DNA from: Acidimicrobiia bacterium
Lineage (GTDB): Bacteria; Actinomycetota; Acidimicrobiia; Spongiisociales; UBA11373
Length of the DNA stretch: 64,000 bases
Reading direction: 5' to 3'
Assembly (NCBI GenBank): GCA_030584185.1
Contig: CP129495.1
Coordinates: forward strand, 1,657,469 to 1,721,468
Of the stretch, positions 23,299 to 33,115 are shown one piece after another (positions within the stretch are counted from its first letter, which is position 1; each line of letters opens with the position of its first letter). Made by a program: the position numbers and the translations under genes. Below the pieces are notes generated by a model. It did no database searches. It had not been told where the DNA came from and was given only the letters and a program-made list of their open reading frames with translations.

Positions 23299-24321
23299 TC
23301 AGGCTCTTTCGGTCGGGGCGGCGGCGGCCGGCCCGGAGGCCTCTCTGCGTTGCAACAGAAGCGCCCCGAGGAGGGCGGCGGCGCCGGTGAACCCGTACCA
23401 GAGGTAGAAGGTGGACACCGACGGTTCGTCCACGGCCACCATGATCACCTGCAGTATCAGGGCCAGGGTCGCCACGGTTGCGAATCCGGCGAGCACCGAC
23501 GACCGCCACCGCAGGGCACCGGCGGCGAATCCGGCGGCAACCACGATGGAGAGCATCACCCAAGCGTCGTCGCTGGCGAACAGCTGGATCGCCTCCAGCC
23601 AGGCGTAGACGGCGCCGAGGGCGAACGCGGCGTTGCGCGGCCTCATCGGCCCCGTCGCCCCCATCCAGATCCACACCAGACCGAGCCCGGTGCCGATCAG
23701 CAGCGAGACCCAGCTCTGCAGCTCCGGGGTGGATCCGAGGGCGGCAGAGGTGGCGATCGATGCCGGGGTGATCGGGTCGTCCAACTGGAACAGGATGAGC
23801 AGCGCCCCGACCACCTGGACGGCGGCTGTGAAGATCGCCACCTGCGTCGGAACGGAAGGGGCACGCCGCCAGACGGCCACTGCGATGACGGCGACCGGTG
23901 TCGCCCGGATGAGGGGAGTGAAGTCGCCTGCGTCGAGGTCGAGCAGCAGCAGGGCGAACGCCACCGACGCCAGGGCGTAGCCGGCGAGCAGGACGAACCC
24001 ACCGCTGCGGCGTATCGCGCCGGCGTCGCCCGCCGTCAGGCGAACCCCTACGGCGAGCAGGACGGCTGCCCCGGCGAGCGAGACCAGCCCGCCGCCGACG
24101 TTGTCGATCGTGCCCAGGAAGATGTCTGCCAGTTCTTCGCCGAGGGTCACGTCGAAGGTGAGGATGAGGGTGGCGATCGCCAGGGCGGCGGCGCCGAAGA
24201 AGCCGAGAACCTCGACCGTGCGTGGCCCGCCTGGAGCCTCGGGTGATCTGCGGCCCTCGATGCCCTCAGCCTGTTCAAACGAAATGTGGCCGGATCTCAC
24301 CGCCTCGTGCTGCTGGGTCAT
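23299..24321 (-). CDS. Multi-pass membrane protein of unknown function
   Basis: A 340-residue protein with a ~40-residue hydrophilic N-terminus (including HISFEQAEGIEG) and about ten hydrophobic segments with short loops, resembling DUF2157-like membrane proteins in general layout only. I do not recognise a specific family. The start at 24321 has a GGAGAGG ribosome site; the open frame continues upstream through the complement of tRNA-Tyr, which is not coding. It converges with the site-2 protease gene (9-nt gap) and diverges from tRNA-Tyr. Confidence 0.75.
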   Translation of the reverse strand: MTQQHEAVRSGHISFEQAEGIEGRRSPEAPGGPRTVEVLGFFGAAALAIATLILTFDVTLGEELADIFLGTIDNVGGGLVSLAGAAVLLAVGVRLTAGDAGAIRRSGGFVLLAGYALASVAFALLLLDLDAGDFTPLIRATPVAVIAVAVWRRAPSVPTQVAIFTAAVQVVGALLILFQLDDPITPASIATSAALGSTPELQSWVSLLIGTGLGLVWIWMGATGPMRPRNAAFALGAVYAWLEAIQLFASDDAWVMLSIVVAAGFAAGALRWRSSVLAGFATVATLALILQVIMVAVDEPSVSTFYLWYGFTGAAALLGALLLQRREASGPAAAAPTERA

Positions 24322-24398
24322 GCGCACCTCTCCGCTCGGGTACTCCAGGTTACGCCGGGCAGGCCGAGCGCGCGAGGAGGCTATCCTCCGCTGGCTCC

Positions 24399-24481
24399 GG
24401 GGGGCTGCCCGAGCGGCCAAAGGGAGCAGACTGTAAATCTGCCGGCGTACGCCTACGGAGGTTCGAATCCTTCGCCCCCCA
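24399..24481 (+). tRNA. tRNA-Tyr (GTA)
   Basis: An 83-nt class II tRNA with a long variable arm. The acceptor strands GGGGGGC and GCCCCCC pair fully; the anticodon GTA is at 24433-24435 within CTGTAAA; the T-arm is GGAGG-TTCGAAT-CCTTC. The discriminator A is at 24481 and CCA is not encoded (CCC follows). A TATCCT hexamer at 24382-24387 may be its -10 element. Its last 22 nt are the seed of the tandem array that follows. Confidence 0.96.
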
Positions 24482-25310
24482 CCCACGGCCCCGCTCCGCT
24501 CGGTCCGATCCCTGATCGGGATCGGACCTCGTCACCAGGGTTGTCGTCTGGTCTCTTCCAGGCGTATCGGACCGTGGTCGCCGTCGGGAGTCGATCCCGA
24601 CGACTCGCCTAGACCCATAGAAGACGGTTCGAATCCTTCGCCCCCCACCCACGGCCCCGCTCCGCTCGGTCCGATCCCTGATCGGGATCGGACCTCGTCA
24701 CCAGGGTTGTCGTCTGGTCTCTTCCAGGCGTATCGGACCGTGGTCGCCGTCGGGAGTCGATCCCGACGACTCGCCTAGACCCATAGAAGACGGTTCGAAT
24801 CCTTCGCCCCCCACCCACGGCCCCGCTCCGCTCGGTCCGATCCCTGATCGGGATCGGACCTCGTCACCAGGGTTGTCGTCTGGTCTCTTCCAGGCGTATC
24901 GGACCGTGGTCGCCGTCGGGAGTCGATCCCGACGACTCGCCTAGACCCATAGAAGACGGTTCGAATCCTTCGCCCCCCACCCACGGCCCCGCTCCGCTCG
25001 GTCCGATCCCTGATCGGGATCGGACCTCGTCACCAGGGTTGTCGTCTGGTCTCTTCCAGGCGTATCGGACCGTGGTCGCCGTCGGGAGTCGATCCCGACG
25101 ACTCGCCTAGACCCATAGAAGACGGTTCGAATCCTTCGCCCCCCACCCACGGCCCCGCTCCGCTCGGTCCGATCCCTGATCGGGATCGGACCTCGTCACC
25201 AGGGTTGTCGTCTGGTCTCTTCCAGGCGTATCGGACCGTGGTCGCCGTTGGGAGTCGATCCCGACGACTCGCCTAGACCATAGAAGACGGTTCGAATCCT
25301 TTGCCCCCCA
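24460..25310 (+). repeat. Tandem array of five 166-bp units built on the tRNA-Tyr 3' end
   Basis: Starting inside tRNA-Tyr, units begin at 24460, 24626, 24792, 24958 and 25124, and a terminal 22-nt copy occupies 25289-25310. Each unit is the last 22 nt of the tRNA (GGTTCGAATCC through GCCCCCCA) plus a 144-nt spacer. Units 1-4 appear identical; unit 5 is 165 bp, with GCCGTTGGG for GCCGTCGGG and a missing C in GACCCATAG. The last tRNA copy has one C-to-T change. Spacers contain strong inverted repeats (11-bp GGTCCGATCCC/GGGATCGGACC; 7-bp GTCGGGA/TCCCGAC). The array ends at a hairpin terminator, so it is probably co-transcribed with the tRNA and may yield small RNAs. No plausible protein is encoded. 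Confidence 0.95.
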
Positions 25311-25332
25311 CGCGGTTTCGCGTGCCGTCATC

Positions 25333-25366
25333 GATTCGCCGCCTTCCTGGCGGCGAATCTCGTTTC
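25333..25366 (+). terminator. Terminator closing the tRNA-Tyr/repeat transcript
   Basis: GATTCGCCGCC-TTCCT-GGCGGCGAATC forms a perfect 11-bp stem followed by TCGTTTCC, a short T-rich stretch. A smaller CACGCG-GTTT-CGCGTG hairpin (25309-25324) lies just before it, directly at the end of the last tRNA-derived copy. Confidence 0.72.
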
Positions 25367-25380
25367 CAGCCTTCGCGTGT

Positions 25381-25446
25381 TGCCCCCTTCTGCCCTTCGG
25401 GCCGCCTCCCCCTGCGGGGGAGGGAATGGCGCCAGACCTGTGTCGC
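25381..25446 (-). repeat. Dispersed GC-rich hairpin repeat, inverted copy
   Basis: On the minus strand this reads GCGACA...ATTCCCTCCCCC-gca-GGGGGAGG...GCCCGAAGGGC, matching the two direct copies at 32930-33069. It lies in the gap between the repeat array and tRNA-Thr. It is REP-like: non-coding, palindromic, intergenic. Confidence 0.65.
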
Positions 25447-25524
25447 GTGCTGCCCCCTCAGGCCCGCGGGCTCGGGTCGTGCGATAGCCGGTGGTCGGCG
25501 CGCCGCGACTATCCTTTCGCCGCC

Positions 25525-25596
<72 letters not shown>

Positions 25597-25649
25597 CGGG
25601 TCCGGCAAGGTGCAGGGCCTAGAGGTCGGTCCGAGTGGGCCGGCTGCCG

Positions 25650-25721
25650 GGCGGCGTAGCTCAGAGGTAGAGCACCCGGCTCATAATCGGGTTGTCGGTG
25701 GTTCGAGTCCACCCGCCGCTA
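25650..25721 (+). tRNA. tRNA-Met (CAT), elongator-type
   Basis: A 72-nt tRNA with anticodon loop CTCATAA. The anticodon stem CCCGG/TCGGG lacks the three G-C pairs of initiators and the first acceptor pair is G-U rather than mismatched C-A, so it is not the initiator. A CAU anticodon could also belong to an Ile2 tRNA modified at C34; I favour Met. It lies 29 nt before tuf, as tRNAs precede tufB in E. coli. Confidence 0.9.
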
Positions 25722-25750
25722 CGAGAACGATCACCAACAGGAGAAGAGTC

Positions 25751-26941
25751 ATGGGTAAGGAGAAGTTTGAGCGGTCGAAGCCTCATGTGAATGTGGGGAC
25801 GATGGGTCATATCGATCATGGGAAGACGACGTTGACGGCTGCGATCACGAAGGTGTTGTCGGAGTCGGGTGTTGGGGGGACGTCGTTTACGGCGTTTGAT
25901 CAGATCGATAAGGCTCCTGAGGAGCGTGAGCGTGGGATCACGATCGCGATTGCTCATGTGGAGTATGAGACGGAGAATCGGCATTACGCGCATGTGGATA
26001 TGCCGGGTCATGCTGATTATGTGAAGAACATGATCACGGGTGCGGCTCAGGTGGATGGGGCGATTCTGGTGGTGTCGGCTGCTGATGGTCCGATGCCCCA
26101 GACCCGGGAGCATGTGTTGTTGGCGCGTCAGGTGGGTGTGCCTTACATCGTGGTGTTCTTGAACAAGGTCGACATGGTCGATGATCCCGAGTTGTTGGAT
26201 CTGGTGGAGTTGGAGGTTCGGGAGCTGTTGTCGGCTTATGAGTTCCCGGGTGATGAGGTTCCGGTGGTTCGGGGGTCGGCGTTGAAGGCGCTCGAGGGTG
26301 ATGCCGAGGCTGCGGGTCAGGTCCTGGAGTTGATGGCTGCTGTGGATTCGTATGTTCCTGAGCCTCAGCGTGCTGTGGATAAGCCGTTTCAGATGCCGGT
26401 TGAGGATGTGTTTTCGATCACGGGTCGGGGCACGGTTGTGACCGGGCGTGTGGAGCAGGGCATGTTGACGGTGGGTTCGGAGGTGGAGATCGTTGGTATT
26501 CGTGCGACGCAGAAGTCCACGGTGACCGGGGTCGAGATGTTCCGCAAGCTGTTGGATGAGGCTCGTGCTGGTGACAATGTGGGGTTGTTGTTGCGGGGGG
26601 TGGGTAAGGAGGATGTGGAGCGGGGTCAGGTGGTGTGTGCTCCTGGTTCGATCACTCCTCATACCGAGTTCGATGCTCAGGTGTATGTGTTGACCAAGGA
26701 GGAGGGTGGTCGTCACAATCCGTTCTTTTCGGGGTATCGGCCGCAGTTCTATTTCCGGACGACGGATGTGACCGGGTCGATCGAGTTGCCTGGGGGTACC
26801 GAGATGGTGATGCCTGGTGACAACACCGAGATGCGGGTGACGTTGTTGAACCCGATTGCCATGGACGAGGGTCTGCGGTTCGCCATCCGTGAGGGTGGCC
26901 GTACCGTGGGCGCCGGCCGCGTCGTCAAGATCCACAAGTAG
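25751..26941 (+). CDS. tuf: Elongation factor Tu, copy 1
   Basis: A 396-residue GTPase delivering aminoacyl-tRNA to the ribosome. GHIDHGKTT (G1), DMPGH (G3; most bacteria have DCPGH), NKVDM (G4) and the SAL motif are present, and all three domains are complete. The encoded protein is identical to the copy at 43922-45112. Codon use is strikingly unlike the neighbours: TTG for Leu, GAT, CAT, CCT and GGT/GGG dominate until roughly the last 27 codons, which revert to GC-rich choice. It follows tRNA-Met and precedes rpmG, an arrangement like the E. coli tufB locus. Confidence 0.97.
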
Positions 26942-31711: not shown

Positions 31712-32467
31712 ATGCCAAGACCCGAGAAGGTCCAGGCGGTCGCCGACATCAAGGAACGCCTCGAAGGGGCGCGTGCCGTGTTCGTCGCCGAGTACTCCGG
31801 CCTCTCCGTCAAGGAGCAGCAGGAACTCCGCCGCGGGCTGCGCGCCGTGGCCGGTGAGTTCAAGGTCTACAAGATGACCCTGGCTCGGCGGGCCGCCACC
31901 GAGGCCGGCAGGGATGGCCTGCTCGAACTGCTGGTCGGGCCTTCGGGCTTGACCTTTGCCGACGACGCCGCCTCTGCCGCCAAGGTGCTGCGCGACTTTG
32001 CCAAGGCCCACGAGCGGCTGGTGATCAAGGGTGCCCTGCTGGGCACCGAGGTGCTGCCACCGGAGAAGGTCGCCGAGATGGCGGATCTGGAGCCCCGCGA
32101 GGTCCTCCTGGCGAAGGTGGCCGGAGTGTTCCAGGCACCGATGGCGAGGATGGCCGGCCTCCTGGCTGCCTTGCCCCGGAACCTGGCAACCGTCATCCAG
32201 CAGCTGATCGACAAGTCCCCGGAGGCGCCGGCCACCGAGGCCGCAGCCACCACAGACGAGGCGCCGGCCACCGAGGCCGCAGCCACCACAGACGAGGCGC
32301 CGGCCACCGAGGCCGTAGCCACCACAGACGAGGCGCCGGCCACCGAGGCCGTAGCCACCACAGACGAGGCGCCGGCCACCGAGGCCGTAGCCACCACAGA
32401 CGAGGCGCCGGCCACCGAGGCCGTCGCCAACGATGACGAGACGGCCGACCCGGCCGAGGAGGAATAG
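31712..32467 (+). CDS. rplJ: 50S ribosomal protein L10 with repetitive acidic tail
   Basis: A 251-residue L10; the normal family length is about 165-180. Residues 1-170 are a standard L10 ([31 protein letters not shown]), including the helix that anchors L7/L12 dimers. From about 171 the protein continues as six near-identical 12-residue repeats ([12 protein letters not shown]) and ends [11 protein letters not shown]. The tail follows the L7/L12-binding helix, so it would project from the stalk base. It overlaps no gene and is 2 nt from rplL. Confidence 0.95.
32222..32434 (+). repeat. 36-bp tandem repeats inside rplJ
   Basis: Six units of 36 bp start near 32222, 32258, 32294, 32330, 32366 and 32402. 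They are almost identical; the main variation is GCAG versus GTAG, giving Ala or Val. The period is a multiple of three, so copy-number change keeps the frame. Confidence 0.93.
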
Positions 32468-32906: not shown

Positions 32907-32929
32907 CTGCGTTGCCGAGGGAGAAGGAC

Positions 32930-33069
32930 GCGACACGGCGTGTGTCGCGTTCGTTCCCCCGTAGGGGGAGGTGGCCCGGAGGGCCGGAGGGGACGAGCCG
33001 CGACAAGGCGTGTGTCGCATTCCCTCCCCCGACGGGGGAGGTTGCCCGGAGGGCCGGAGGGGGCGAGCC
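32930..33069 (+). repeat. Two direct copies of a 70-bp hairpin repeat in the rplL-rpoB gap
   Basis: Copies start at 32930 and 33000 (period 70), and a degenerate third begins at 33070. Each has three small inverted repeats in order: GCGACAC/GTGTCGC, CCCCC/GGGGG, and GCCC-gga-GGGC. Related copies occur at 25381-25446 (inverted) and 55917-55952. The 448-nt gap contains no gene; beyond the repeats it holds the rpoB promoter and leader. Confidence 0.8.
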
Positions 33070-33115
33070 GCGACAGCGCCCTGTCAGGGTCTGCCACCCG
33101 CAGGGCCGTCCTTCC

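Follow-up and report, generated by a model that had tools for sequence, protein, structure and literature searches.

The tRNA-Tyr gene of the window (the whole stretch of 64,000 nt that was analysed, part of a one-contig genome of 2.21 Mb) is followed by a tandem array in which every unit closes with a repeat of this tRNA's 3' tail. What is the spacer of these units: an RNA able to switch between two structures, as the initial annotation had proposed, or a piece of DNA that has come to lie behind a tRNA gene in some other way?

The tRNA-Tyr array and the pairings of its spacer

The tRNA-Tyr(GTA) gene lies at 24399-24483 (ARAGORN; the Rfam RF00005 match covers 24399-24481), on the + strand like all the features of this locus given below. 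Its last ~23 nt, GGTTCGAATCCTTCGCCCCCCAC (24460-24482), are the repeated segment, and tandem repeat analysis gave a period of 166 bp and 5.1 copies over 24460-25311. In each unit a 143-nt spacer is followed by a repeat of the tRNA-Tyr 3' tail (23 nt). Spacer 1, the feature flagged by the initial annotation and delimited by sequence and repeat analysis, occupies 24483-24625; it is followed by tail copy 1 (24626-24648), directly preceded by ATAGAAGAC. Units 2, 3 and 4 extend over 24649-24814, 24815-24980 and 24981-25146, and unit 5 (25147-25311) has a spacer one base shorter (142 nt) and, in its tail copy, a single C replaced by T; the five units are nearly identical. Beyond the array come a hairpin, GATTCGCCGCC-TTCCT-GGCGGCGAATC (25334-25360), resembling one found directly 3' of tRNA-Tyr in the related genome G008, and then tRNA-Thr(GGT) and tRNA-Met(CAT) (25525-25722 for the two tRNAs) and tuf. 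These downstream neighbours are conserved, the order tRNA-Tyr, tRNA-Thr, tRNA-Met, tuf being kept in many relatives. The Rfam search found no family in spacer 1 and, for the array, only tRNA credibly, with one sub-threshold match on the other strand and outside the array. A GC-rich palindromic interspersed sequence of the CCTCCCCCTGCGGGGGAGG type was also noted 3' of the array (25397-25427 of the window); similar copies follow tRNA-Lys and tRNA-Ala(cgc), and similar sequence is also present in a 70-bp tandem repeat (32929-33075). A 36-bp tandem repeat (5.8 copies, 32222-32429) is probably a coding low-complexity stretch.

All the sequence elements on which the proposed switch was built are present in spacer 1. 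Hairpin 1, GGTCCGATCCC-TGATC-GGGATCGGACC at 24502-24528, has a perfect 11-bp stem, and the proposed alternative partner of its first arm is a second ATCGGACC at 24566-24573. CCACGG (24483-24488) and CCGTGG (24572-24577) could form an enclosing stem together with ACCAG/CTGGT, and a further hairpin, GTCGGGA-GTCGA-TCCCGAC at 24583-24601, folds with a P of 0.98-0.995. Dinucleotide shuffles of the spacer seldom contained an 8-mer with two exact downstream partners (3/2000) or a perfect 11-bp stem (28/2000), and 35 of 500 offered an alternative run of 8 for the hairpin arm when G-U pairs were allowed; the second partner by itself is only mildly unusual. The folding energy of the unit corresponded to a z of -2.91 on the + strand and of -2.71 on the - strand. 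When a single unit was folded, hairpin 1 had a P above 0.99, the alternative pairing a P of ~0, CCACGG/CCGTGG one of 0.0002 and ACCAG/CTGGT one of 0. Constrained folding of the single unit was 11.7 kcal/mol worse with the alternative forced, and 7.0 kcal/mol worse with the CCACGG stem forced. In the whole array hairpin 1 had a lower P of 0.44-0.63, probably owing to pairing between identical units, and the alternative one of at most 1.1e-5.

Homologous spacers are found in the same genome behind tRNA-Lys(ttt), in two 168-bp units, and at one end of an island described below (I578, 78% over 117 bp). Hairpin 1 is retained in all three spacers (Tyr, Lys and I578); in Lys a T-A pair has become C-G, a compensatory exchange, and in I578 a single pair is broken. 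Both Lys and I578 have an altered second ATCGGACC and lack the GTCGGGA stem as well as the CCACGG/CCGTGG stem. In the Lys spacer an alternative of 7 bp (TCGGGTC, one pair being G-U) remains in a shifted position, though its P is ~0.03 and 231 of 500 shuffles do equally well. On the strength of the folding energies and of these homologues, an RNA switch was rejected. That each unit RNA toggles between two hairpins is very improbable: the complementarity exists and is rare in shuffles, but the alternative is hardly ever populated, the position of its partner is not conserved and Rfam gives no regulatory family match. The initial annotation had itself named uncompensated loss of the pairings in homologues as the evidence that would speak against it, and such loss is what is seen, both of the second partner and of the enclosing stem. 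Two exclusive pairings that are both conserved, by which a riboswitch or attenuator would be recognised, were not found here.

The other part of that proposal, that the spacer is structured rather than inert, holds for hairpin 1. For hairpin 1 we aligned 14 spacer copies of a sister-genus family, three copies with indels and several fragments being left out. In the 13-pair stem, 84.6% of the cells were standard-paired, and 20 cells carried a double change, versus 0-3 when the alignment was slid by 1-3 columns. Stem covariation was 0.290 versus 0.129 in shuffles, and none of 500 shuffles reached the former value. The pairs showing a double change (5; 121/500 shuffles) and the further pair types (10; 357/500) did not stand out in number, and at one inner position 11 of the 14 copies have a broken pair. 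Judged by sequence comparison, hairpin 1 is a real conserved structure, with strong compensatory change in the sister genus. It sits just 3' of the tRNA, has a pentaloop and is not followed by a T run; no terminator-like site with a T run was found at positions 24000-26000 of the window. It probably serves behind the tRNA as a stem of the terminator-like or 3'-end type.

Tail units behind other tRNA genes

In the same genome, copies of a tRNA's own tail were found within 1.5 kb downstream of 3 of the 45 tRNA genes: five behind tRNA-Tyr, two behind tRNA-Lys(ttt) and four behind tRNA-Pro(ggg). One spacer family is present behind tRNA-Tyr, behind tRNA-Lys(ttt) and beside a tRNA-Ala tail, and in the Tyr and Lys units the tail matches the adjoining tRNA. 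The Pro(ggg) unit, of 130 bp, is unrelated to the Tyr unit. Behind tRNA-Ala(ggc), the next unit ends in a tail of the tRNA-Met type, and 19 kb further on there is a Tyr-like spacer followed by an Ala tail and a further unit. The sequence GAAGACGGTTCRA occurs exactly eight times in the genome, every time at a unit end. Tandem duplication of a whole tRNA with later loss of its 5' part was tried as an origin and rejected, since spacers are common to different tRNAs and no 5' tRNA remnant was visible by eye. Two side observations concern Pro(ggg): the four 130-bp units downstream of this gene (211095-211169 of contig C1) carry a longer tail, and a 26-nt segment is common to them and to a unit behind tRNA-Arg in G008.

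When 1.2 kb downstream of each tRNA gene was searched in five genomes of the family, own-tail copies were found behind 19 of 175 genes: 3/45 in this genome, 2/40 in G008, 4/36 in G002, 2/38 in G005 and 8/16 in G010. The share of G010 is biased, this genome having been sampled partly through unit matches; leaving it out gives 11/159. The first own-tail copy stood at 104-150 nt for 16 of the 19 tRNAs and at 258-326 nt for the other three. As controls, reversed tails gave 1/175 and swapped tails 50 in 3500 trials, many of these being real copies reached through related tails. In two genomes sampled at the level of the order, 0 of 22 and 3 of 23 tRNAs had own-tail copies. The general unit measures roughly 125-175 bp, which is too short for a sizeable gene. 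It begins directly 3' of the tRNA, and usually a GC-rich hairpin lies close to this start. At its other end stands a short motif, often ..AGAAGACGG, ..GCATAAGG or ..GGAGAAGG, and after it a copy, 20-24 nt long, of the tail of the host tRNA, beginning at TTCRA in the T-loop and running to the 3' end; no obvious inverted repeats, such as delimit a miniature inverted-repeat transposable element, were visible by eye at the unit ends. Related spacers follow different tRNAs, and the tail then mostly matches the tRNA. The spacer families are genus-specific: searched against 138 genomes of the wider order, the Lys spacer gave outside its own genome only short, weak matches (best E 5.3e-4); within that genome, a weak match at 931509 proved on reading to contain no unit. 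One scan of genome contigs returned one irrelevant match.

Sites without units were sought for comparison. Among six relatives, only G008 has behind its tRNA-Tyr a hairpin like the one that follows the array here, and no array; hairpins of this kind recur in that genome. This makes one empty-site comparison in six relatives, a weak one; the flanks in G002 and G010 are too diverged for any. In G005 (contig C10), tRNA-Tyr and tRNA-Thr are separated by ~1.1 kb with an ORF bearing an HPFxDGNGR motif, of Fic type by eye, and no tail copy was found at the end of this stretch.

The spread of a single spacer family could be followed in genus g3. With the spacer of tRNA-Ser(cga) of G002 as query, the search found 6 places in G002 and 17 in G010; the remaining 12 of the 14 family genomes gave no match. 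We inspected 23 places, namely 22 of these 23 matches (the query itself being left out) and one from another search. A same-strand tRNA lies upstream in 11 of them: Tyr, Ser(gct) in both genomes, Ser(cga) with a second copy behind it, Ala(tgc) in both genomes, Ala(cgc), Met, Arg(acg), Lys(ctt) and Lys(ttt). Most of these 11 continue into the tail of that very tRNA; one family stands behind nine tRNA species, mostly with matched tails. At Ser(gct) of G002 the unit ends without a tail, and at Ala(tgc) of G010 one unit leads to a Ser tail and a second to an Ala-like tail. As to the remaining places, several start or end in a recognisable tail with no tRNA in reach, often at contig edges, and a few have no tail. 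Mismatched tails were met only inside arrays (the Met tail of the Ala array here, the Ser tail at Ala(tgc) of G010), never completing a tRNA, as would be expected if selection acts only on the tail that adjoins the tRNA.

The main rival to the mobile-unit origin set out in the next section is plain homologous exchange with tandem amplification, by which the unit, an RtT-like repeat, would have arisen once, RecA-dependent exchange and gene conversion then spreading it between tRNA loci and amplifying it without a dedicated enzyme. Recent tandem amplification fits the five near-identical Tyr copies and the four Pro units, the same layout exists at E. coli tyrT/tyrV, and slow homologous exchange could also spread spacers that, as here, are lineage-specific. 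However, the tRNA loci share a T-loop core of only ~10 nt, short for homologous exchange; the spacing of the first copies is strikingly uniform; and one g3 family has reached so many tRNA species with mostly matched tails. We regard this origin as doubtful.

An island in a tail copy

The 19 kb between the two parts of the tRNA-Ala array (contig C1, 577.8k-596.9k) form an island bordered by a 155-bp direct repeat. A large serine recombinase is encoded beside the tRNA, and the island also carries HsdM, HsdS and HsdR of a type I restriction-modification system, a UvrD-like helicase, an N6_N4 methylase and an M78 peptidase-domain protein. A relative of this island in G008 has a recombinase 77% identical and main blocks of 81-85% DNA identity, and its site is tRNA-Met itself. 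Both islands have a left end with a Met-type tail and a right end reaching TTAGGCCCAC. The left side is the real tRNA-Met in G008 versus the Met-type tail copy of the Ala array in this genome, where the right side continues into the Tyr-like spacer. The comparison of the two sets of ends indicates that the island occupies a tail copy here, not a tRNA gene, although a rearrangement may have carried island and tail together from tRNA-Met. Elsewhere on contig C1, from 470838 onward, a tRNA-Met is immediately followed by what looks by eye like an integrase-core transposase.

Origin of the units and comparison with known systems

For the feature behind tRNA-Tyr, the reading to which we lean is that of a spacer in a tandem array of mini-elements bounded by tRNA tails and dispersing by recombination at these tails. 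Such a unit would be a gene-less mini-element using the tRNA tail as its junction, its mobility and its enzyme being inferred. Units would spread by entering tRNA 3' ends through recombination at the tail or a staggered cut in it. The entering unit would supply a new terminator-like hairpin and leave the tRNA functional; recombination between identical tails would then let arrays grow, the five Tyr units being an example, and tail copies could also receive integrations aimed at tRNA tails, as with the serine-recombinase island. Conservative recombination at the TTCRA core would account for heterologous units within arrays, and insertion with tail duplication for matched tails behind nine tRNA species. 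The latter call for explanation because the tail of an integrated element normally derives from the element, so that either an insertion that duplicates the tail or a correction of tails is needed. In favour of such mini-elements we count the array anatomy, the matched tails, the shared spacers, the uniform spacing and the island in a tail copy; against them, neither an enzyme nor any excision product or circular form came to light, and some units are tailless, as at Ser(gct) of G002. In a wider form, offered tentatively, the units would be a new class of minimal, gene-less mobile elements of ~145 bp that enter the stretch from T-loop to 3' end of many tRNA genes in a bacterial family, duplicating the tail and bringing their own terminator hairpin, and the tail arrays would be spare attachment sites sparing essential tRNA genes from islands that target tRNAs.

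As candidates for the mobilising enzyme, tyrosine recombinases of the same clade found behind tRNAs would come first. In G002 and G010 they lie antisense, 136-149 nt behind the tRNA, at 4 of 24 loci, and at 537 nt at a fifth; the resemblance of this distance to the spacer length is suggestive only. The seven stretches examined for elements of this type end before the elements' far ends. The same distance would fit units that are relics of larger tRNA-integrated elements (phage or ICE), their interior deleted and a pair of attachment sites left ~145 bp apart; repeated tails usually signal integration, and the Ala array does hold an island. Against such relics, random deletion would give neither uniform spacing nor homologous spacers behind many tRNAs, and the unit hairpin pattern that was used matched none of the 24 recombinase loci. 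Exact unit patterns gave 0, 0 and 8 matches in viral contigs, none of them relevant: several of the 8 lie inside predicted tRNA genes, and no unit was visible by eye. We consider a relic origin unlikely.

Mini-elements of the kind that we favour can be set beside several known systems. A CRISPR array has differing spacers, whereas those of the present array are identical or nearly so. With intrinsic terminators of tRNA genes the units share a GC-rich stem directly 3' of the tRNA, but here it has no T run. Casposons and Cas1 integration use tRNA ends as targets and duplicate the target, and the layout, with a duplicated target repeat between inserted segments, is alike; unlike there, the duplication is of ~22 nt and the inserts form a related set rather than captured foreign DNA. 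Integrative elements that target tRNAs through a tyrosine or serine recombinase are bordered on each side by a direct repeat of the tRNA 3' end, as found here, and the tail that they bring in place of the original keeps the tRNA intact. They differ in that a 143-nt spacer has no room for an integrase gene, in the tandem copies and in the presence of one g3 spacer family at nine tRNA species. In the open-access literature nothing was found on tRNA-tail units, subscription literature lying mostly outside that search. If mobile, the units would rank with the smallest elements specific for tRNA ends. Arrays of spare tails would let the cell absorb islands without risk to single-copy tRNA genes, and one island here does occupy a tail of this kind. 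The closest likeness is with tyrT/tyrV of E. coli K-12 (rttR, RtT RNA), where tRNA-Tyr is followed by tandem units with 19-nt copies of the tRNA 3' tail spaced by 178 bp. The Rfam library, which probably includes RtT, gave no credible match in the array besides tRNA. The present units differ in having tails that begin at the T-loop, in following many tRNA species and in spacer families common to several tRNAs; we know of no spread of such units behind many tRNA species in E. coli. Should the units prove mobile, they would provide a wider family with which the tRNA-tail repeats of E. coli tyrT can be compared.
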